Origin: Cinnamomum chago
Taxonomy: Eukaryota; Streptophyta; Magnoliopsida; Laurales; Lauraceae
Length of the DNA stretch: 64,000 nucleotides
Direction: 5' to 3'
Assembly (NCBI GenBank): GCA_038049695.1
Contig: CP142455.1
Coordinates: 21,737,501 to 21,801,500 of the forward strand
This document shows, one piece after another, positions 4,480-34,051 of this stretch; within the stretch, counting starts at the first letter, position 1; each line of letters starts with the position of its first letter. The notes under the pieces were generated by a model that saw only the letters and a list, made by a program, of their open reading frames with translations, searched no databases and was not told the DNA's origin. Position numbers and translations under genes: made by a program.

Positions 4480-5082
4480 TGATGCCAAAAAAGTGTTTCG
4501 GGCACCACCGGTCAAGTGATAAGCAATTAATGTGAAAATTAATGGAGAGAGAGAGAGAGTTTATAGTGGTTCGGTCAGTGTGACCTACGTCCACTTTAAT
4601 TGGTTACTTTACTGCTCCGGGGAAGAGATTACAAAGTAGATGAGCACAATGATAGTGAAAAAGTAGATAAGATTTGCCTCTTTGGTAGGACTCTCTTTTT
4701 ATAATCTTCCCCTAACGGGTGGGGACGATTCTCCAGCGATATACGCTCCATTCTGGTGGAGTCTTCCGAACCGTCTTCAACAGACGAGATTCTGGTGGAG
4801 TCTTCCGAACTGCCCTCAACAGACGAGATCCTGGTGGAGTCTTCCGAACTACCCTCAACAGACGAGCAGGTAAGATCTCTTCCGTAGGACTTGGTAAAAG
4901 CCGGTTAAGGGAACGACGCACTGACTCCGTCATTCGGTGGATCCGGACCCGGCCCTTAATGGGTGGGTTTAGACCCGAGCTCATCACTAACTCGGGTCAC
5001 TTTGACCTGACCCACCATCGCGGACTGAGTCATTTGGGCTTAACCCGTCATCGCAACTGAGCCATTTGGGCCTGGCCCATCA
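4480..5082 (-). repeat. 3' LTR of the Gypsy element
   Basis: It begins TGATGCC and ends CCCATCA on the plus strand and is nearly identical to 14134-14737. It contains a (GA)n run and three tandem copies of a unit reading TCTGGTGGAGTCTTCCGAAC (4751-4850). The polypurine tract abuts it at 5083-5096 (minus strand TTGAGGGGTAGA). Confidence 0.92.
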
Positions 5083-14133: not shown

Positions 14134-14737
14134 TGATGCCAAAAAAGTGTTTCGGGCACCACCGGTCAAGTGATAAGCAATTAATGTGAAAATTAATGGA
14201 GAGAGAGAGAGAGTTTATAGTGGTTCGGTCAATGTGACCTACGCCCACTTCAATTGGTTACTTTACTGCTCCGGGGAAGAAATTACAAAGTAGATGAGTA
14301 CAATGATAGTGAAAAAGTAGATAAGATTTGCCTCTTTGGTAGGACTCTCTTTTTATAATCTTCCCCTAACGGGTGGGGACGATTCTCCAGCAATATACGC
14401 TCCATTCTGGTGGAGTCTTCCGAACCGTCCTCAACAGACGAGATTCTGGTGGAGTCTTCCGAACTGCCCTCAATAGACGAGATTCTGGTGGAGTCTTCCG
14501 AACTACCCTCAACAGACGAGCATGTAAGATCTCTTCCGTAGGACTTGGTAAAAGCCAGTTAAAGGAACGACGCACTGACTCCGTCATTCGGTGGATCCGG
14601 ACCCGGCCCTTAATGGGTGGGTTTAGACCCGGGCTCATCACGAACTCGGGTCACTTTGACCTAACCCACCATCGCGGACCGAGTCATTTGGGCTTAACCC
14701 GTCATCGCAGAATGAGCCATTTGGGCCTGGCCCATCA
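14134..14737 (-). repeat. 5' LTR of the Gypsy element
   Basis: This is the partner of 4480-5082, with ends TGATGCC...CCCATCA on the plus strand. It carries the same (GA)n run and the same triple GGTGGAGTCTTCCGAAC units. Roughly 15 to 20 substitutions separate the two copies by eye. On its right side, ACTGTTATCA completes the split Copia LTR. Confidence 0.92.
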
Positions 14738-22205: not shown

Positions 22206-22300
22206 GGGGTTTTAACGGGAAAAACCCTCATATATGGGCATTTAATAAATTTAGACCCAATAAATCCTAGCATACAGAAGTGGTCCCATGGGCCACTTCC
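22206..22300 (+). repeat. left terminal inverted repeat of the MULE
   Basis: It is G-rich at the outer end (GGGGTTTTAACGGG) and pairs with 33960-34051 over about 80 bp with scattered mismatches. It ends around the CAGAAGTGG block. Confidence 0.85.
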
Positions 22301-22325
22301 GTTTTTTTTTAAGCTTTTTTTTGTA

Positions 22326-22343
22326 ATAGTCGATATCGACTAT
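22326..22343. promoter_or_regulatory. terminal copy of the 18-bp palindrome (left)
   Basis: A perfect ATAGTCGATATCGACTAT starts 120 bp inside the left end of the element. It is identical to the consensus of the central array at 29076-29379 and mirrored near the right end at 33912-33929. Confidence 0.85.
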
Positions 22344-23590
22344 CCAGTCGTTATACAAAAGGGTAAAAAAACCCCTTTTCTCACCGTCTTCTTCACCTTT
22401 TTCTTTTCTCACTCTGTCTTCATCACCTTTTCCATTTCAAGCCTTCGACGGTGGTCCCAGAGAAAGATTCGCGCCAACTATTCAAACATTCTCCATAGTT
22501 TGACGCACATGGAGGTATTTTTTTTTTCTTCTTGTTTTCGTGCCCTGAATTTAGAAGGGAGTTAGCGTTTTTTTATGGTTTTGATCGTTCAGAATGGAAA
22601 GACCTGCAATCTTCTTTGCACTTTCTAGTTTACCCATTTAGAAGGAATTATTCATCTATGAGCACTGCCGTTTGCGGAAGTTATTGTATCATTTTGTTTA
22701 TGACATTAACCAAGTTATATGTTCATGGAAAACGTACTGGGTTTTCTGAAATCACAGTAATTTGGTTTTGAAGTATGGTAATAATTTCATGAAATTACCG
22801 TCAAGATCCTTAACAACAAACTAGAAGTGGATCCCCTCTCTTTGGTCTGAGGATGAAATTTTGCTTGTTTGATTCATAGGATGAATGCTTTTTATTTTCA
22901 GTGATTTATCCTCTTTTAAGAAGCAAATGTAGCAAGTGCAGTTTACTCATCTAAAGAAACTGCTAATTGGATACAATCACAATCATCTAAAGCACATATC
23001 ACTTCTCTTAAGATGCAGTGGATATATGTTTTGGTGGTTTATTATTTGCCACTAATGTTCTGTGCCCAAACAAGCTAGTTACATACTTTTGTTCAATTGT
23101 TGTCTTTATTTGCTTTTGTGTATGTGAGCACTCCAGTTAGATGTGGTGGCTTGTTAATGATCACTTCATAGAGACTGATGTAACGTGGTATTATAATATG
23201 TTGGCACTCCAGAGAAAGTAATATGTGGGCATTCTAGAGAAAGTATTATATTGTGGTATGGGAAGGGAAAGGAGAGCATCTTTCCAATAGTTGTCCCTAA
23301 ATTAAAAAAGAGGTAGACATCTTCACAAGCCTCCAAAGATCCCGAACCCTTTTGGATAATTCCAATCCAACGTCAATAGTAAACACCTGTAGCTTTCGTC
23401 TTCCCATGAACATCTCAAGGTTTGATAATCTTTCAAATACAAAGAGGAAGTCACCCAAGGGCAAACAAACTTGCATTGGCTGGAAGGTATAGATGTGTAG
23501 TCCACTGTTTGGTGATACAAACAGTTGATGAAATGTGGCCCCACATGGACATGTTATCATTCAAAACTACTAATGATTTGGTGGTTTTAA

Positions 23591-25088
23591 TGTAAGGAAT
23601 TATTGATCACACAAAAGATAATGTGAAGCAGGAAATTCTAAACATTTTGGATGAATGACTTCTTTTATTCAATAACTGAACTCAGCTTAAATAGCCTTTA
23701 CAAAGTAATAGAAGAGAGAAAAAACAGCCCACTAATGCATGACTATAGTATCGTGGTACAAGTAATAAAGAAATTGTCAAACCTATGCATCTAACACCCT
23801 AAGGAATAGGGATTTATTCTAACAAATAGCTCTACTGTAACTGAATAACTCAAGCAATAACTAAACAGTTTCAAGTATTTAGTTTATCTGACACTTCACA
23901 TACTCCCAGCATCTGTCGCAATCTCAAAAAATCTTCCAGCTTCAGTGGCTTAGTCATTACATCAGCTACCTGATTCTTTGTGCCAGAAAAGTTAAACTTG
24001 ATAACACCATCTTTAACCAAATCTCGAAGAAAATGGAACCGCACATCTATATGCTTGCTTCTGCCATTCATGACAGGATTGTTAGAGAGTTTAATGGCTG
24101 AGCTGCTGTCACACATGATTATAGTGCTTCCTTCCTGCTTATGCCCTATCTTCTCTAGTATTCTCCTCATCCGTACAACCTGACAAGCACAGGCTGCAGC
24201 TGCCACAAATTCAGCCTCAATGGTTGATAATGTGAGCAGTGGTTGCTTCCTTGAAGACCATGAAACAACTCCTAAATTCATCCAAAAAACATATCCAGAG
24301 ATGCTTTTCCTGTCCTCAACATCACCGGCGTAATCATTGTCAGTGAATGCAAGAAGTTGTTCAGCTTCACCCTTTTTGTAAAGTATCCCGTAGTTTACCA
24401 TCCCTTTCAAGTACCTGAGAGCTCTTTTGGCTGCTTGCAAATGTGGCTCTGTAGGCTTAGACATGTAACGACTAATTAAATTCACAATGAACATTATATC
24501 AAGTCTAGTGGTGGTGAGATACATGAGACTTCCAACTATTTGCTTAAAATATGTTTCGTTAACTTTGACTCCTCCTTCATCACTGTGTAATTTTGAACCC
24601 GGTACAATGGGACTACACACAGCATTGCTATCCTCCATTCCAAAACGTTGCAGAACATCCAGTGCGTACCTTTTTTGACAGATATGTATACCATTAGCAT
24701 TTTGCAAAACCTCTATGCCAAGGAAAAACCTCATACCCCCCAAATCAGACATGTCAAATTCCCTTAACATAGACTCTTTAAATTCACTCATCAAAACTTC
24801 ATCATCACCAGTATATATCAAGTCATCCACATAAACACTCACAATAAGAATCTTACCTTTGCTGTTGGTTTTAACGAACAATGTTTGTTCACTGTGACAC
24901 CTATGAAATCCTTCACTTACAAAGTGTGCTTCAATTCTACTAAACCAAGCTCGAGGAGCTTGTTTTAGTCCGTACAAGGCCTTTTGCAATTTATACACTT
25001 TATACTCATGGAAGCGACAACAGCCTGCATAGTTCCTATGATTCAATATAATCTCACCAACAACTGTAAATCCATATTGTGCACACAC
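23591..25088 (-). mobile_element. truncated Copia element inside the MULE
   Basis: A minus-strand fragment consisting of one LTR (23591-23824, TGTTAG...TTACA on the minus strand, with a TATTTAAG promoter-like motif) and the 3' part of pol. The 5' LTR, gag, protease and integrase are missing. The right border near 25088 is close to the first recognised exon of the PMD gene. Confidence 0.8.
23871..25088 (-). pseudogene. Copia reverse transcriptase-RNase H fragment
   Basis: A 405-residue open frame with RT motifs (YGLKQAPRAWF, VSVYVDDLIYTG, MRFFLGIEV, QIVGSLMYL) and RNase H (YAGDVEDRKSISGYVF, LSTIEAEFVAAAACACQV, DSSSAIKLSNNPVMNGRSKHI, NQVADVMTKPL). It lacks the first part of RT. It is surprisingly open for a truncated copy. 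It belongs to a different Copia family from the element at 1812. Confidence 0.88.
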
Positions 25089-25380
25089 ACTGCCATGAAA
25101 ATCGAGTTTATTTTCACCTAGTGAAATTAATGATCTTCAATGCTGCCAAGTCCTAATTAATTATCTAAAAAACTCGTTGATATTTTACAGGTCAATGAAG
25201 AGAAACCTGTTGAAACTCCAAACATACTCCTCTTTAACCAAAACAATCATATCTCGGAGGGTATCGGTCACGGAGAGGTATACCAAAAACAGAATTCAAT
25301 TTTGTATTTACCATAAGAATTCCTTAGTTTTGTTCTATTGTTCATGGGGTCACCTCAATAGTTGTTGTTTTTACAAGGAA

Positions 25381-28300
25381 CTCGGACGGATGAGATGCAT
25401 CCCAACAAACCCCGATAAAGATATATGGGTGCTTACAGATGTTCAAAAGCAATATGTACGGCAAACAGGTCTACACCACTTGACCGACATAGATCGTATG
25501 GTCATAGACCATGCCTTAATAACAACTTTGGTTGAGAGGTGGCGCCCAGAAACAAATTCATTCCATTTTCCATCCGGGGAAGCAACTATAACACTCGAAG
25601 ACGTTGCTTATATCTATGGCTTCCCAGTCGATGGCCCAGTGGTAACCGGACGAACTTTTTCCGGTAGATTTGTAGAACCGGCTTATCATGAGTTGCTTGG
25701 GATCACGCCACAGAAGAAGTTAGACTATGTTGGCATAACAATAAAATTTAAGTGGCTTGAAGACAACTTCAAACCTTCCGCCTAGCAGGATAAGAAAAAG
25801 AAGAAAACCAAAGATGTCGAGATAAGAGCCACCCGGGCATATTTGTTCTTTTTGGTGGCCGGGCAGATCTTCACCCAGACATCTGGTGCGAGGGGGCCTG
25901 CTTATCTACTTGAATTGTTTAAAGATTTCAAGCCTTATGCATGGGCCCCCGCATGCCTTGCAAATCTTTACAGAATGTTGGCAAAGGCAACTTGGTGGGG
26001 CCATGAGACGAAGGAGTCTGAAGGAAAGGGGAAAAATCAACATATAAATGACAACAAGTCCTGTAGGACACCCACAGGGCCTTTGCAGTTGCTACAGGTG
26101 GATAATTCTCAAACTTAACATTTTTGGGTGCATTATTTAAATGCTAACTAACAGTTGCATTTTTTATGTTTTCCATCACAGATATGGGCTTACTCGAGAA
26201 TGTCTCTTGGACGGATCCCTCGGCAAGATCCTAGTTGGAAAAATGACATACAATTTTCACTTTTCAAGACATGGCATAAGAGGTTGGTGGATCACCCCCA
26301 AGCCCTCGCAACGGTGAAGGAAGTCAGGCACCAACTAAACATCTTGCCGACTGATGGGGTAAATACACATGTGTCATCCAAGTAAATTTTATGATGTTTT
26401 TACTTAGGTTACCCGATGCATATATTTTAATGTCTTCTTATATGTGTATATATACAGTTCACTTGGCAGCCATATTCTGGCTATGGCAAAAAATTCAAGA
26501 CGAGCGTACCCAAAGGGGATCGCGACCTGTTTTCGTCATCAATCGTCCTAGTGTGGTACTGGATTGTTGAGCGGCATAATACATGGCGAGTCATGAAACA
26601 GTTTGGGCTCAAGCAATTGGTCCCACCGCCTTTCAATATGCCATACTTCCGTGGAGAACGTATAGAGAGGATGGTGATTGATTACAGCTCGCGTATGGAC
26701 GAAGAGGTAACAGCACTGTGGGCTGCAAGAAAGCAGCTGGGTTTACGCGGAGAGAAGTGCACCCAGCCGGTTCATTCAGAAGAGTACCTGCTATGGTATG
26801 GTGCCAACACAGTCCGACACATTGGCAAGGTTGAGCACGTGGAGAGGCCCGAGGCAGAAGCCCCCGCTTAGCAAGCTGAGCCATCTGTCCCACAGAAATA
26901 TGTAAGTATTGAATGCTAATTAGTCTGGAATTTCATTTATATTTCTATCTATCGTATTAACGTTACTTATTCTGGTTAATTGCTTGTCCGCTGTTTTCAA
27001 GTTGATGAACTTGTTGCTCGCTTAGAGCGGTCGTGTGATCGGGCAGACAGGAGGAATAAAAACGTGTCCAAACTTACGGAGTCGATTCGGAAAAAACTGA
27101 AGACATTTAAGGCAGCTATTGGGACAGCATTTGTGCACTTTTCTATGGAAGACTGCAATAGCTCACAATCCGATGAGGATGTAGAAAAGGTAAACCGTCC
27201 CACCCTCCATTAAATTTTATCTTGTGCAATCTGACTCTGTTATCCGTTAAATTTTTATAATGTGCAATCTGATTGTGTCCTTTCTGTTTTCCATCAGACA
27301 AGCAGTGTTCCCTCTCAAACTGGTCCATCTCACGCTGTTTTCCATCAGACAAGCACTGTTCCCTCTCAACCTGGCCCATCTCACACTGTTTTCCATCAGA
27401 CAAGCAGCCTCGTTGGACTCTCTCACACGAGAGTAAAGAAAGCCGCTATTAAAAGTCCAAGGGCAAAAAGGTTAAAAAAGGCCGGACCAGTACGTCCCGA
27501 TCATTCACCAAGCAATGAGCGTAAAGCAAGCCTACCACCAACCGAAGAAGTGCTCTCAACCCCCCCAATAGCCAGGACACTGTTTGACACTCCTGTGACA
27601 GTTACTAGTGGTTCCGCAATTGTTGTTGCAGCACCTATGGCTACCATAGTCTCTTTGATTTGGAGAATAAAGCGCTTGCCCCGTATGCGTAAAGTGCCCG
27701 TAAAGTTCTTTGATTATTCTCATTCTATGGTGCATTCGGGCTATGTATTAAATGATAAGGAGCAATTCTTTCTTAGGGGTTTCAAGGAATACTATGAGAC
27801 AAAGTAAGCACAATAATATTTCCCCCATTATTTTCAATTTGTACCCATCTTCATTAATATCTTGTGCTGAAGTGTTTTTTTTTATTAACAAACATCTATT
27901 CCATGTAGAGAGGATGAACTAGCCAGTATTTGTACCATGATATCCAGCAACGATTTAAAGAAAGCACTGGACGAGGGAACTTGGCTGGACACCAATCTAA
28001 TGTATTATTACTTTGACATCATGAGAGAAGGATGTCCAACCGCTTTCATCGCCGACCCAAGCATATGTGTAAGTCTGCGCTGAAGTGTCCTATCTTAGTT
28101 ACCATAGGCTTATGAGTCATCTTGATTCGTTAACCATTTCTATTGTGGTGACATTACTATTCGCAGAGTTGGTGGTAGGATGGATCTGATGCCAATGTTG
28201 AAGCTGCCTTCGGTAAGCACGGCCATAGAGTTTGGGAAGCAAGGGAGGCACATACACTTGTGTTTGTCGTCCACTACAGGAACCATTTCACGCTCGTTGT

Positions 28301-28766
28301 GGGATACGTTGATGAAAAAAGGTGGGAGTTCTATAACAGTTTGGCTGGTGATCGTTTGACACAGAATAAAGCGGAACAATTTGTAAGTATGGTTTGGGAT
28401 CCTATATTACAATCCGAGTACATTGTTTGAGACATCACTTATGATAACAGCTGCCCCCCTTGTGCAATTTTTCATTTTTTGCAGATCAGCTGGTTAAACA
28501 AGATGTATATGCATTTTGGGTGGACGGATCCATTTTTATGGACTATCGTGTTCAAGGAAGACATTCCTCATCAAAACAATGGTAATGACTGCGGAGTCTT
28601 CACTGTGGCATTCGCAGAGCATTGTGTTCATCGTCGTCCTATCACATTTACCCAAAATGATATCCCTTATTTCCGTAGCAAAATTGTCATTGAGTTATTC
28701 AAGAGAAGTTGGCAAGTGAACGCTAATAGGTTGAATCTTCCTGAGTTGTTGAACCTACCGGCTTGA
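25381..28766 (+). pseudogene. MULE-borne plant mobile domain (PMD) - Ulp1/C48 protease gene
   Basis: Exons inferred from GT-AG borders: about 25381-26097, 26182-26358, 26458-26901, about 27000-27189, 27298-27803, 27909-28068, 28167-28382 and 28485-28766. The first three encode a plant mobile domain (TDVQKQYVRQTGLHHL, HFPSGEATITLEDVAYIYG, IWAYSRMSLGRIP, VLVWYWIVERHNTWRVMKQF). Then come a basic coiled region and a Ser/Pro-rich linker. The end is an Ulp1-type cysteine protease with His in NHFTLVV and Gln/Cys in PHQNNGNDCGVF. The position usually held by the catalytic Asp (YDS) reads YNS. Three in-frame TAG codons lie at 25783, 26869 and 28176. The third-to-fourth exon join was not in phase, so one border is uncertain. 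PMD proteins act in transposon silencing or are transposon-borne; Ulp1 cleaves SUMO-like conjugates. A recent pseudogene or a readthrough gene are both possible. Confidence 0.75.
27283..27405 (+). repeat. 51-bp tandem repeat that includes a splice acceptor
   Basis: The stretch CTGTTTTCCATCAGACAAGC occurs three times with a spacing of exactly 51 bp. The acceptor AGs fall at 27296-27297, 27347-27348 and 27398-27399. The first serves as the inferred acceptor of exon 5. Because 51 is a multiple of three, all three acceptors would keep the reading frame. Confidence 0.85.
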
Positions 28767-29075
28767 TGTCATTTTATTAGTTTAATAGAAGTTTTGGGAA
28801 GGTATTGGGCAGTAGACGGAGAGGCCAAACATAGACAAATACTTTTTGTATGAATTTGTGGAACTTGTAAGAAGCACTGGTTGTGGAACTCATATGGTTA
28901 TATGATTTTGACTTTATATTGTGGACCTCCATTTCACATTATTTGAAATTGAATGGGTATGGAACATGTATTTATTGAATGTGGTTGTGATATTATATAA
29001 TGTGGTTTGTGCAGAATGTGTGCTTGAATAAGATTACCAATGTAAAATTGAATCATAATAAAAAACAACACAGGC
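28767..29075. other. 3' flank of the PMD-Ulp1 gene
   Basis: About 300 bp of AT-rich DNA between the Ulp1 stop codon and the palindrome array. It probably contains the 3' untranslated region. AATAAAAAAC occurs just before the array, near 29056. Confidence 0.5.
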
Positions 29076-29379
29076 ATGGTCGATATTGACTATTACTATA
29101 GTCGATATCGACCATTTAACTGAAACATAAAAAACATAGGCATAGTCGATATCGACTATAGTAATAGTCGATATCGACCATTTAACTGAAACATAAAAAA
29201 TACAGACATAGTCGATATCGACTATTACTATAGTCGATATCGACTATTACTATAGTCGATATCGACTATTTAACTGAAACATAAAAAACACAGTCATAGT
29301 CGATATCAACTATTACTATAGTCGATATCGACCATTTAACTGAAACATAAAAAACACAGGCATAGTCGATATCGACTAT
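29076..29379. repeat. phased array of ten 18-bp palindromes
   Basis: Ten copies of ATAGTCGATATCGACTAT or close variants start at 29076, 29098, 29142, 29164, 29208, 29230, 29252, 29296, 29318 and 29362. Every start-to-start distance is 22 or 44 bp. Short spacers are 4 bp (TACT or AGTA) and long ones 26 bp (TTAACTGAAACATAAAAAA plus seven bases). Copies 3, 5, 6, 7 and 10 are perfect palindromes; copies 2, 4 and 9 share the variant end GACCAT. The array lies between the converging 3' ends of the two MULE genes. Confidence 0.95.
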
Positions 29380-29574
29380 TAGCTGGAATATAAAAACAAA
29401 ACAGTCATATTTAATTAAGATATAGACTATCTAAACTTAAAAAAACAGTCATATATACTATGTTTTTTTTGCGCTTTAGATTTAGCCAATAATATCTCAA
29501 TAAGGCTGGAAAAATTAAACCATTTGGATCCCCAAGAAATTAATAGAGTTTTCAACATATATTATCCCCAAAAA

Positions 29575-30358
29575 GGAGTTCGTCCTTATAAAAAAAAAAG
29601 ACATGGGCACTATACAACACAATTATGCCCTTCCAAAAAATGCTTAAACAAAATGTACAAGCCCCATCACGGCAACATCTTCTATCACATTTATACAAAA
29701 TACCAACACCAACCAAAAAGGAGTTCACGTTGACTCTTGCATTCCCCTTCCAAAAAATGCTTCAGTAGACTATACACTGTCCAGATTGCTGTTATACAAA
29801 ATACCAACACCAACAAAAAAGGAGTTCACGTTGACTCTTGCATTCCCCTTCCAAATAATGCTTCAGTAGACTATACACTGTCCAGATTGTTGTTACACAA
29901 AATACCAACACCAACAAAAAAGGAGTTCACGTTGACTTTTGCATTCCCCTTTCAAATAATGCTTCAGTAGACTATACACTATCCAGAATGTTGTTATACA
30001 AAATACCAACACCAACCAAAAAGGAGTTCACGTTGACTCTTGCATTACCCTTCCAAATAATGCTTCAGTAGACTATACACTGTCCAGATTACTATTATAC
30101 AAAATACCAACACCAACCAAAAAGGAGTTCACGTTGACTCTTGCATTCCCCTTAAAAAAAATGCTTCAGTAGACTATACACTGTCCAGATTGCCGTTATA
30201 CAAAATACCAACACCAACCAAAAAGGAGTTCACGTTGACTCTTACATTCCCCTTCCAAAAAATGCTTCAGTAGACTATACACTGTCCAGATTGCTGTTAT
30301 ACAAAATACCAACACCAACCAAAAAGGAGTTAATGTTGACTCTTGCATGCCCTTTCCA
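29575..30358. repeat. 101-bp tandem array at the end of the transposase gene
   Basis: Six full units start at GGAGTTCACGTTGACTCTTG at 29720, 29821, 29922, 30023, 30124 and 30225, all exactly 101 bp long. A partial unit follows at 30326-30358. A diverged, longer relative lies at 29575-29719. Units share TATACACTGTCCAGATT and ACAAAATACCAACACCAACC. The last unit ends about 4 bp from the transposase stop codon, so the array forms its 3' flank. Confidence 0.95.
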
Positions 30359-30361
30359 TCT

Positions 30362-32966
30362 TCAATTTTGGGCCGGTGGATTGCGGCAACTTTGTCGATT
30401 ATGCCCCCTCTCCTTATAGTTACCACAAGTGACTACCCTCCGTTGGCAGCCACAATCCTCGGTCCGAATCCTATTCTTCTTTGGGCGCCCTGGCTGTTTA
30501 GTAGCTCTTGGTGGCAAAACTCGTTCATCAGATGTGTGCTCCCATTGTTTACTGTCTCGGGTAGCATGCAATACTTCACTATACGTCGTACGATATACAC
30601 TTGATAGGTACCAATGTTCGCAGAATTCATATGGATCATAGTTTCTAATTCTCATTGAAGCCAATGCATGAAAACACGGGATCCCCAAAATCTCCCATTT
30701 TCGACATGTGCAAGTCTTGCGTTCAAGATCGACGACGTCCACGTACTCCGCAGATTGTACCTGAAACTCAACTAGACCAGCCACACGAACATGCAATCGT
30801 CGAGCTTCTTCACTTTCTTTTTCCAAAACTTTCTCCGCATAAGGTGTTAGACAGCTTGTAATTGCTTCCGATTCAAGATGGCGCTTCTGGAAAAATTCCA
30901 TTAGCTTGGCCCGTATTTCCTTAACCTGTTTTGTAATAGGAAGGACCCTTGTGTCCTTTAAAAGGCCATTTGTGCATTCTGCAGTGTTACTAGTGAGCAT
31001 GTCATACCGCCGTCCTTCTACACGTGCATCAGCCCAACGTTGCCTTCCAATAGAATCAATGTAAGTGAATGCCTCTTGGCTGACTGCCCGAATATCGGCC
31101 ATATATGCATCATACTCAAACGGCCTATTTGCTTTGGCAGCACGCCAAAATTTCATAACAATTGCAGCATCACTGAAAGCTACCCTAATATTCTCGGCAA
31201 TGTGACGGCAACAATAAGACCCTTTTGACGGTCCGACACAATAGTCAAATTATTAGGCTCACCCAGCGCTATATGTAGGTTTGCAAGGAACCACTCCCAA
31301 CTATCACGTCGTTCGGCTTCCGCAAAGGCAAAAGCGATGGGAATGAGCTTATGATTGGCATCGTGTGTAACGGCAACGAGCAAGACACTTGGATACTTCC
31401 CTCGGAGATGTGTCCCATCTATCAACGAGCAAGACACTTGGATACTTCCCTCGGAGATGTGTCCCATCTATCGCAATCATTGGTCTACACGTACTAATGA
31501 AAGACCTTAGACAAACTCCGAATGCCCAAAAAAATCTTCTGAAACGGTCCTCAGAAGTGGTGTCTATGTTTGTTATTGTGCCTGGATTGGTCCTCTGCAG
31601 TTCAATACAGTAACTAGGCAGCATTTGAAATGACTCTTCGTAAGAGCCTCGCACTGCACGCAGGGTTATTTCCTTTGCTACATGTGCCTTCCTGTAACTA
31701 ATAGTTGTCCCATATTCCATTTGGTAGTCGTTCATGATCTCTTTTGGTTTCAGATTGACATTTTGTCGGACTCTATCCATGATGAACTCCGAAATTAGCA
31801 ATGCTGACGCCTGTTTATGTGCCATTCCCATCATTGGCTTCGAGCATCTATGGACAGGATTGTACGTACGCACTTTGAATTGTGGTCCTGATTCCACGAT
31901 AGAGGCATGAATGCGCCAAGGGCAATTCTGATCTTTACAACATGCTGTCACTTTATACATGTTTGTCTTCAAGTGCTTCAGAGTAAAGTTTCCATAAATT
32001 GCGAACTTAGCCAGGGTCTTCCGAAATGTGTCACGATCAGGGAATTCACGGCCAACCCACATTTCGCGTGCTGAATTGTTTCCAATGTCTACATTCGATT
32101 TTTCAGGTACCATGTTGTCGATAAAATTAACACCTGAATGTTCACTTGAAGGACATGCATTGTTGATTGGATTAGCCCCGGCAACGTTGCTTTTGTCCGA
32201 GCCCATCACTATCACTGGAATTTGTCTGGTGAAATTATTTTCATCAAAATAGTTCTCATCACCATACTCTGCCCCATCCTCTATATCATCAACATCAATT
32301 TCTTGACCTAAGGTATGATGCGGACTTGTAATGTTTCGAACAGTCGAAAAATGCATGTCATTATCTTCTTGGAGATCAACTGTAGGAAGCTCTGGAACGA
32401 CTGTCCTATCTTTCACTTCTTTTCCCTTGCAATTTATCAATACACTCATTGATTTTCGAAGTAAACATCGATGCTTGTCATTCCTCTGAAACCTACAGTG
32501 CATCAACAAATAACAAAATGCAAGTAAGGGATTGGGATTAATATTTGATAAAGTATAATTTAGAATACAACAAATTGACAAAGTATAATTTAGAATACAA
32601 CAAATTGACATACCCATATTGTTCTCTTCCTTTACATTGTCCATTGTTCCAACTTTTAGAAACATATAAGTAGATCCCATTTGTATTCTGACCCGATGCT
32701 TTGATCATTCTGTTCACATCATTATCATCTTCAATGCTAGCCAGTGAAAATGCACGTCCATTGTGATGAAGGTATTGTATGCTTAAACTTTTAGTAGATG
32801 AATCTCAATTAGATGCTTCAATTGCTTCGGCAACCAATGACTCATATGTTATGTCGGTTGATAAATACCTCATCTTCTGCTTTCCTCCGTTATAGACGGG
32901 ACGCATAATATCAAATTCAAAGTTTCCATCATAGTGGAATATGATTAGAACCTCGCAATCTGACAT
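30362..32966 (-). pseudogene. mudrA-type MULE transposase
   Basis: On the minus strand, exon 32614-32966 starts MSDCEVLIIFHYDG (PB1-like/N-terminal region) and carries a TGA near 32808. It joins in phase across a GT-AG intron (32493-32613) to the main exon. That exon holds the MuDR N-terminal region (GREFPDRDTFRKTLAKFAIY, CPWRIHAS), the catalytic start (IAIDGTHLRGKYPS), SDRQKG, CCRHIAENI, then a SWIM zinc finger (CTCRKWEILGIPCFHALA) and a zinc-knuckle-like tail (CGNYKERGHNRQSC) in which a usual Cys is Tyr. A 49-bp tandem duplication at 31374-31471 and a frame change near 31220 break the core. The protein would be nuclear and would bind the element ends. Confidence 0.85.
31374..31471. repeat. 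49-bp tandem duplication in the transposase core
   Basis: Two identical 49-bp copies lie head to tail at 31374-31422 and 31423-31471. They cover the codons around the first catalytic Asp (DGTHLRGKYPS). Since 49 is not a multiple of three, the frame is lost after it. Identity of the copies points to a very recent event. Confidence 0.95.
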
Positions 32967-33770
32967 GCTGTTTATAAATATAAAATTAGTTTATAATAGT
33001 GATATGAATAAAAGGTAAATATGTATACATAAACAGTGCCCATGGTGAAAGGCTAAATGTATGTTTAAAGTAAATGCATTGTGATATTCTAAGGGTGTAC
33101 TAATTGTATTGTTAAACAATGCCATACAGAGACTATGCACATTTTAAACCTTCAACCAAAAAGGGATTATGAAAACAAAATAAGATAGTGTAACTGTAGG
33201 AGCATATCCACCTTTTATAACAATTTCATAGGACAAGGCAAATGTGCTGTTAAAATTTCTAAATCTTGTAAAAAGAAATAGATGAAAATGAATTAACATG
33301 GGGCATGAATGTTGTATTTTATAGTTTGGGTTAGAATAAATAATACAGTGAAGAAGAGAAGTGATTTATTTATTGTCAAATACATGTAAATTTAAAACCC
33401 TAAACCCAAAAACGTATGTGCAAATTAAAGATGGTAGTGTCACTTTAAGAGCAAATATCCACCGTTCAAAACTCTAGATGCACTTGGGTGCCATTTTCTG
33501 GGGTAGTAAAAAAGTTGCACAGTTAAAACCCTAAACCCAAAAACGTATGGAAAATCAAAGATGGATGTGTTTTTTTCGGAGCAAATATCCACCGTTCACA
33601 ACTCTAGATGCACTTGGGTGCCATCTTCTTGGACAGAGCAAGCTCATTCATTACTTGTCTAGGGCTGGTAACATATAAAAGGAAGAATATGAATCAACAA
33701 GTTGGGTGAATGAAAAGTTTTAGGGAAACTATCAAAACTAATAATAAAGATTCAAGTGTGTACTTACCTC
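32967..33770. other. upstream region or long intron of the transposase gene, with repeats
   Basis: It is AT-rich with no coding region of its own. Two related units at about 33397-33520 and 33521-33645 share AAAACCCTAAACCC, GAGCAAATATCCACCGTTC and CTAGATGCACTTGGGTGCCAT. A weaker third copy lies near 33145. The AAACCCTAA telo-box motif is a known plant promoter element. Confidence 0.55.
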
Positions 33771-33853
33771 TTAAAGGAGTGCAACCATCACCCTTAATGG
33801 ATTGAATAAAGAGCTGCAGCTCTTGTTCGTCGCCAGGTAGGGTTGCAGACATG
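33771..33853 (-). CDS. possible first exon of the MULE transposase gene
   Basis: The minus strand reads an ATG at 33853, an open frame encoding MSATLPGDEQELQLFIQSIK, and a strong donor AGAG|GTAAGT at its end. It is 60 bp inside the terminal palindrome. Joining it to the acceptor just before 32966 would not keep the frame, so it may be an untranslated leader, an upstream ORF or part of another splice form. Confidence 0.35.
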
Positions 33854-33911
33854 AGACGAACGATGAAAAGGGAAAAAGAAGACGCGAGACTGGGTATGTA
33901 ACTTATGAATG

Positions 33912-33929
33912 AGCGTCGATATCGACTAT
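33912..33929. promoter_or_regulatory. terminal copy of the 18-bp palindrome (right)
   Basis: The 12-bp core GTCGATATCGAC (33915-33926) is perfect, with one outer arm changed. It ends 122 bp inside the right end of the element, against 120 bp on the left. It also sits just upstream of the candidate first exon of the transposase. Confidence 0.85.
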
Positions 33930-33959
33930 AGCGCTAAAAGACAAAAAAAAAAAAGGTAA

Positions 33960-34051
33960 ACGTAACATTAGGGCCACTTCTGTCTATCAAGTTTTATTGG
34001 GTCTAAATTCATTAATAGCATGTTTAGAAGGATTTTTCCCGTTAAATCCCC
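33960..34051 (-). repeat. right terminal inverted repeat of the MULE
   Basis: This is the complement of the left repeat: GGGCCACTTCTG, TTTATTGGGTCTAAATT and TTTTTCCCGTTAAATCCCC occur in the expected mirror order. Confidence 0.85.

Follow-up and report, generated by a model that had tools for sequence, protein, structure and literature searches.

The window, a stretch of 64 kb of the genome of Cinnamomum chago, harbors a Mutator-like element (MULE) in which two genes converge: a plus-strand gene encodes PMD and Ulp1/Peptidase_C48 domains, and the transposase is encoded on the minus strand. The array of palindromes considered here lies between the 3' ends of these genes, where the initial annotation had placed it. 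The features are summarized in Table 1.

Table 1. Features of the MULE copy and its palindrome array (window positions)
Feature	Coordinates	Strand	Remarks
MULE copy, ~11.85 kb	22206..34051	.	TIR pair 22206-22286/33971-34051; matched to L008+L009, L013+L014
Left TIR	22206..22345	+	dyad near inner end
Lone exact dyad	22326..22343	.	inner edge of left TIR
PMD gene exons, frame broken	25099-25785, 25786-26118, 26431-26871	+	Pfam PF10536 in three ORFs
Ulp1 / Peptidase_C48 exon	28431..28766	+	end of plus-strand gene; Pfam PF02902
Array of ten dyads	29076..29379	.	linker length 4 bp, or 26 bp (TTAACTGAAACATAAAAAACACAGTC-like)
101-bp tandem repeats, 6.6 copies	29691..30358	-	between array and transposase stop, directly 3' of the latter
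Transposase gene, broken here	30362..32704	-	SWIM 30362-31249; MULE 31180-31467; DBD_Tnp_Mut 31349-32704
Dyad AGCGTCGATATCGACTAT	33912..33929	.	inner edge of right TIR
Right TIR	33912..34051	-

The terminal inverted repeats of ~140 bp are those expected of a MULE, and the MULE, DBD_Tnp_Mut and SWIM domains, found in pieces in the broken window gene, are all recognized by Pfam in a full relative (L009:532-3138). The two full relatives, L008+L009 (12,054 bp) and L013+L014 (12,091 bp with one N), both retain an 869-residue transposase frame without stops, in the former this same stretch of L009. Equal 9-bp flanks, that is, target-site duplications, were seen by eye in all five relatives with both ends read (L005, L008+L009, L010, L013+L014 and L018; one is a run of T), and the flanks of the window copy itself are imperfect. 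The closest named relatives of the window transposase and PMD proteins come from Cinnamomum and Persea; among solved structures, the PMD exon has a single weak match (E 0.3). An exact 49-bp tandem duplication (31374-31472) lies within the broken transposase gene, and an RVT_2 fragment of the Copia type (23871-25136, minus strand) occupies a part of the element that has no match in the full relatives. Cyclin_N-like fragments under the Pfam cut-off in L008 (4733-5065 and 4178-4504, minus strand) suggest a captured cyclin piece. Elsewhere in the window, one 39-bp tandem repeat occurs in two places, 4750-4866 and 14404-14520, 9.65 kb apart.

The repeated unit is an 18-bp dyad with the consensus ATAGTCGATATCGACTAT. 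A scan of both strands with up to three mismatches finds ten near-copies in the array, starting at 29076, 29098, 29142, 29164, 29208, 29230, 29252, 29296, 29318 and 29362, with start-to-start steps of 22, 44, 22, 44, 22, 22, 44, 22 and 44 bp. The ten sites that had been claimed are thus present, but only five match exactly, with one change in four others and two in the last; the exact 22-bp register that had been claimed holds for the window copy but gives way to other spacing in L008, subfamily B and group C. The whole window contains 12 sites at the same threshold, compared to 0.01 expected from shuffles, and the two outside the array, at 22326 (exact) and 33912 (two mismatches), are those at the TIRs.

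Relatives of the element were grouped by the identity of their transposase to the window fragment, at 91-97% for group A (84% at one locus), 79-89% for group B and 60-64% for group C; the 869-residue frame is open, without stops, in 18 group A entries. A search of the genome (1.06 Gb, 14 contigs) yields 1,144 exact dyads, and none for the reversed control. The exact-dyad places listed comprise 12 loci, taken as 14 stretches, of which nine loci contain an array; within stretches of 8-9 kb, L015 and L017 have only a left-end match, and L007 has one lone dyad along with short matches. Arrays that were read whole contain 7 to 13 dyads. In L008+L009, the core GTCGATATCGAC (up to two mismatches) occurs at 13 places, all of them in the left TIR, the array or the right TIR. 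A single dyad with this core, or two in one case, stands at the inner edge of the TIR, as read at both ends of the full A copies and of three deleted copies, and at one end of two C copies. The right-TIR dyad (up to three mismatches) is present in 29 of the 30 group A loci L019-L048, window included, and reads exactly AGCGTCGATATCGACTAT in 26.

Among the first 50 of the 207 dyad pairs separated by 4 bp, 38 are found up to 5 kb downstream (3') of a listed transposase and none upstream (5'); the other 12 have no listed transposase near, two of them being in the deleted copies L005 and L006, and the listed transposases are a lower bound, given that 94 of 2,151 candidates were scored. Rather than occupying random places unrelated to the family, which the initial annotation had considered fatal to its reading, most of these 50 pairs adjoin transposases of the family. 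A convergent PMD exon is found within 15 kb 3' of the transposase at 57 of the 94 transposase loci listed (30/38 in A, 15/32 in B and 12/24 in C), with one other arrangement. Many PMD matches of ~72% identity and similar open-frame lengths are unpaired with a listed transposase (57 of 144 are paired).

The array is also retained in copies that have neither the transposase nor PMD. L005, L006, L010 and L018 are deleted elements of 4.3-5.0 kb in which tblastn finds no transposase or PMD match within the stretches taken; what remains of the Ulp1 exon in all four is a piece that matches over 42-79 residues. L005, L010 and L018 have a dyad near both ends as well as the array, and one end was read in L006. 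The four have in common a central block with the array, and fall into two types by unlike subterminal sequence, between which the central block is mostly 90-97% alike. We considered the array as an island of conservation in these copies and rejected this possibility, its neighbors being equally alike in binned identities. Because the central block is shared and the array is no better kept than the rest of it, the retention of the array amounts to one or two events.

The spacing of the dyads consists of a rigid part, the short linker, and a drifting part, the 26-bp linker. Genome-wide, 810 neighboring exact-core pairs have gaps of 1-31 bp: 207 have a gap of 4 bp, 17 have gaps of 5-25 (nine of 24, five of 25, and one each of 5, 6 and 15), 20 have gaps of 27-31 and, by subtraction, ~566 have a gap of 26, a remainder that includes gaps 1-3. 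The short linker is thus represented by 207 pairs at 4 bp vs two at 5 or 6 bp. Among 50 pair places listed, the gap is 26 in 36, 4 in 11, and 27, 24 and 15 in one each. In a set of 14 arrays with 124 dyads, the short linker measures 4 bp in 48 of 48 pairs. Spacing does not drift freely in related copies, the other outcome that had been named as a refutation; the lack of indels in so short a linker is only suggestive. The sequence of the short linker is variable in A (conservation 0.70) and in B (0.53), but invariant among the seven pairs from deleted copies. For the long linker, the length is 26 bp in 16 of 19 cases in A, 19 of 19 in the deleted copies and 15 of 24 in B, where it ranges from 15 to 33 bp, and the L008 array includes steps of 45 and 42 bp.

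How the register arises can be seen from two near-identical full copies. Outside the array, 30 of 11,635 aligned positions distinguish them, and one 51-bp gap occurs besides smaller ones; inside it, there are 16 differences over 350 positions and gaps of 44, 22, 22, 2 and 1 bp. The gaps of 44, 22 and 22 bp imply that the register can be inherited through unit duplication; turnover of the array in units of 22 and 44 bp both gives rise to the register and maintains it. The initial annotation had invoked selection or very recent expansion. This is only half borne out: unit duplication can pass the register on, but selection on the exact 22-bp phase is unsupported because the long linker drifts in older copies, and strict selection on this phase over 300 bp was accordingly rejected.

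Signs of constraint on the dyad itself differ between the groups. In B, conservation is 0.90 for the dyad, with a peak at its center, and 0.83 for the 26-bp linker, both above the short linker; in A, the dyad (0.97) is hardly better kept than the 26-bp linker (0.95). The dyads were chosen for their resemblance to the consensus (up to five mismatches), which raises their apparent conservation; nor are they independent samples, since they duplicate. The rate of change at CpG vs other positions of the dyads, taken pairwise between loci, is 0.69 in A and 1.05 in B, and 2.0-2.25 in the deleted copies, on 11 changes in all; six whole-element comparisons (array excluded in two of the six) yield 2.3-4.5. 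A general retention of CpGs in the dyads, which we had considered, was therefore cut back to A and B, as the deleted copies change more at CpGs. The retention of CpGs by the dyads of A and B would be compatible with selection, or with low methylation, in elements that still have the genes, though it is proof of neither.

In eight of eight copies chosen by their transposase alone (L057 of A; L054, L055 and L056 of B; L049, L050, L058 and L060 of C), the array is at the expected place; the B arrays of L011, L012 and L016 were located via the dyad itself. In group C, the array occupies the same place as in A, with steps of 21-23 and 75 bp and linkers of 3 to 5 bp between unlike partners, and its dyad is GTTGTCG-N4-CGACAAC, in which both outer arms are altered; hybrid sites stand alongside. 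Exact sites of this C type number 34 genome-wide (control 0), of which 20, but not the other 14, lie at most 5 kb downstream (3') of a listed transposase. The TIR core GTCGATATCGAC is unaltered at two C TIR edges, and in L053 occurs twice, 21 bp apart. Between A and two C copies, the TIR core is identical at 12 of 12 positions vs 68 of 124 and 66 of 122 in the remaining TIR, and one B TIR core has a single change (11/12). Over the 3.5 kb examined, group C showed no left TIR.

The presence of the dyad at the element ends and in an internal array, with both arms altered between lineages, is the imprint expected of a dimeric DNA-binding protein, and the dimeric binding proposed in the initial annotation appears to hold up on these grounds. 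A role restricted to transcript ends or insulation, also suggested there, fails to account for the inner-edge dyads of the TIRs, which lie far from both 3' ends. The array is best explained as the internal part of a family-wide cis element that is also present at the inner TIR edges.

We propose, with confidence about evenly balanced against doubt and by analogy, that the array could be a set of binding sites for a dimeric protein encoded by the element, working like the VANC target arrays of Arabidopsis VANDAL MULEs. Each dyad would be bound by a dimer; dyads spaced by 22 bp, which is close to two turns of the helix, would be bound as pairs. The binder is perhaps the PMD/Ulp1 protein, the transposase being the main alternative; binding might protect the element from silencing by the host, much as VANC acts at the motif arrays of VANDAL, perhaps with demethylation upon binding. 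In maize En/Spm, the element-encoded TnpA recognizes a short motif that is present in many copies, and is linked to demethylation; those motifs are subterminal in a CACTA element, whereas the dyads here lie between MULE genes.

According to the accessible parts of two reports, the VANC proteins of VANDAL MULEs bind to motifs repeated in tandem and cause methylation to be lost, and their targets are short motifs in tandem repeats of noncoding VANDAL regions (PMC5735166, PMC10398659). As described in the same parts, the arrays of VANDAL21 and VANDAL6 are like the present one in consisting of a short motif repeated in noncoding DNA of a MULE, in the expansion and contraction of the tandem repeats and in altered motifs in related families (PMC5735166, PMC10398659). 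Compared with VANDAL/VANC as portrayed there, the motif here is an 18-bp dyad, often in 22-bp pairs, situated between two 3' ends and also at the inner edges of the TIRs, and the accessory gene is PMD plus Ulp1. The VANC domains DUF1985 and DUF287 are absent from the ORFs scanned with Pfam, a scan in which short exons may have been missed; the VANC21 motif YAGTATTAY has no occurrence in the element, and the VANC6 motif AGTTGTCC has two, none in the array. The group C half-site AGTTGTCG has seven of eight letters in common with this VANC6 motif, possibly by chance. The seven letters AGTTGTC of AGTTGTCC occur 10, 14 and 6 times in L049, L050 and L058, which may also be chance. Thus, the array would resemble a VANC target array in its action and, on the tests made, is not a member of the VANC system. 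The DOWN motif, which is linked to MAIN/MAIL1-dependent genes in the accessible text of PMC9899485, is absent.

PMD is described, in the available part of PMC6446971, as occurring in several groups of MULEs, where it often lies antisense to the transposase, and PMD and/or DUF as present in half of the VANDAL members. The present element is like these PMD-carrying, MUDR/MDR-like groups, as available in PMC6446971 and PMC5418596, in its transposase with a SWIM finger, TIRs, 9-bp duplications and opposite-strand PMD; the available text of both sources does not mention a dyad array, and no earlier report of the present array was found in the accessible content of open-licence papers, in which a text search with the 12-bp core brought up two papers, both on other subjects.

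The alternative that survives best, although we consider it unlikely, is that the dyads are binding sites of the transposase, with the TIR copies serving transposition and the array holding or titrating the transposase such that the element limits itself. The transposase bears a MuDR-type DNA-binding domain of its own, dyads lie within both group A TIRs, and no other part of the TIR is as well conserved as their core when A and C are compared; however, cutting the ends would not require some ten sites away from them, and the TIR dyad lies ~120 bp inside rather than at the terminus.

Less probable still is the formation of RNA or DNA hairpins, in which a dyad pair linked by 4 nt would yield an 18-bp stem with a 4-nt loop, ending the convergent transcripts or seeding small RNAs. 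The fixed length and variable letters of the short linker in A and B are consistent with a loop, and RNA folding gives the array a stability far beyond that of shuffles (z -20.8), but good folding is general to self-complementary repeats. Pairing between paired dyads scores 778 vs 771.7 in shuffles (sd 3.7), a weak excess reached by 6% of them; compensated changes number 7 vs 4.2 expected (11%), and two-sided changes within single dyads 6 vs about 4.2. Covariation is near chance inside dyads and, between paired ones, weak and short of decisive. Moreover, conservation in B is highest at the dyad center, the lone TIR dyads have no neighbor with which to form the 18-bp stem, and the linkers of group C vary in length and join unlike partners.

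We give little credence to the possibility that the dyads are sites for a host transcription or chromatin protein exploited by the element: TIR-proximal sites could act on promoters, but the arms are altered together between A and C in one genome, for which an element-borne factor would be the easier explanation, and most of the pairs listed (38 of 50) adjoin transposases of the family. Equally improbable is the passive spread of a minisatellite within the transposon, the register then being a side effect of duplicating units, for although units are gained or lost in 22-bp steps, tandem repeats exist in other places of the element (the 101-bp repeats next to the array, the 51-bp gap elsewhere) and CpG changes are in excess in the deleted copies, the same dyad stands at the TIRs, a lineage with different letters and period has the array at the same place, and dyad and linkers are unequally conserved in B.

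Binding of the dyads by a protein of the element, which we prefer, touches on the open question of why MULEs carry PMD genes. An anti-silencing role of PMD captured by MULEs has been suggested, as a speculation, in the accessible part of PMC5418596. It is conceivable, if rather doubtful, that plant MULEs possess a second, independently evolved sequence-specific anti-silencing system, in which the captured PMD/Ulp1 protein would recognize the dyad both at the ends of the element and in the internal array, and protein and dyad would change together between lineages. The dyad is defined, open transposase frames are present in copies that are nearly identical, and the arms are altered in a sister lineage, all of which makes the anti-silencing idea directly testable.
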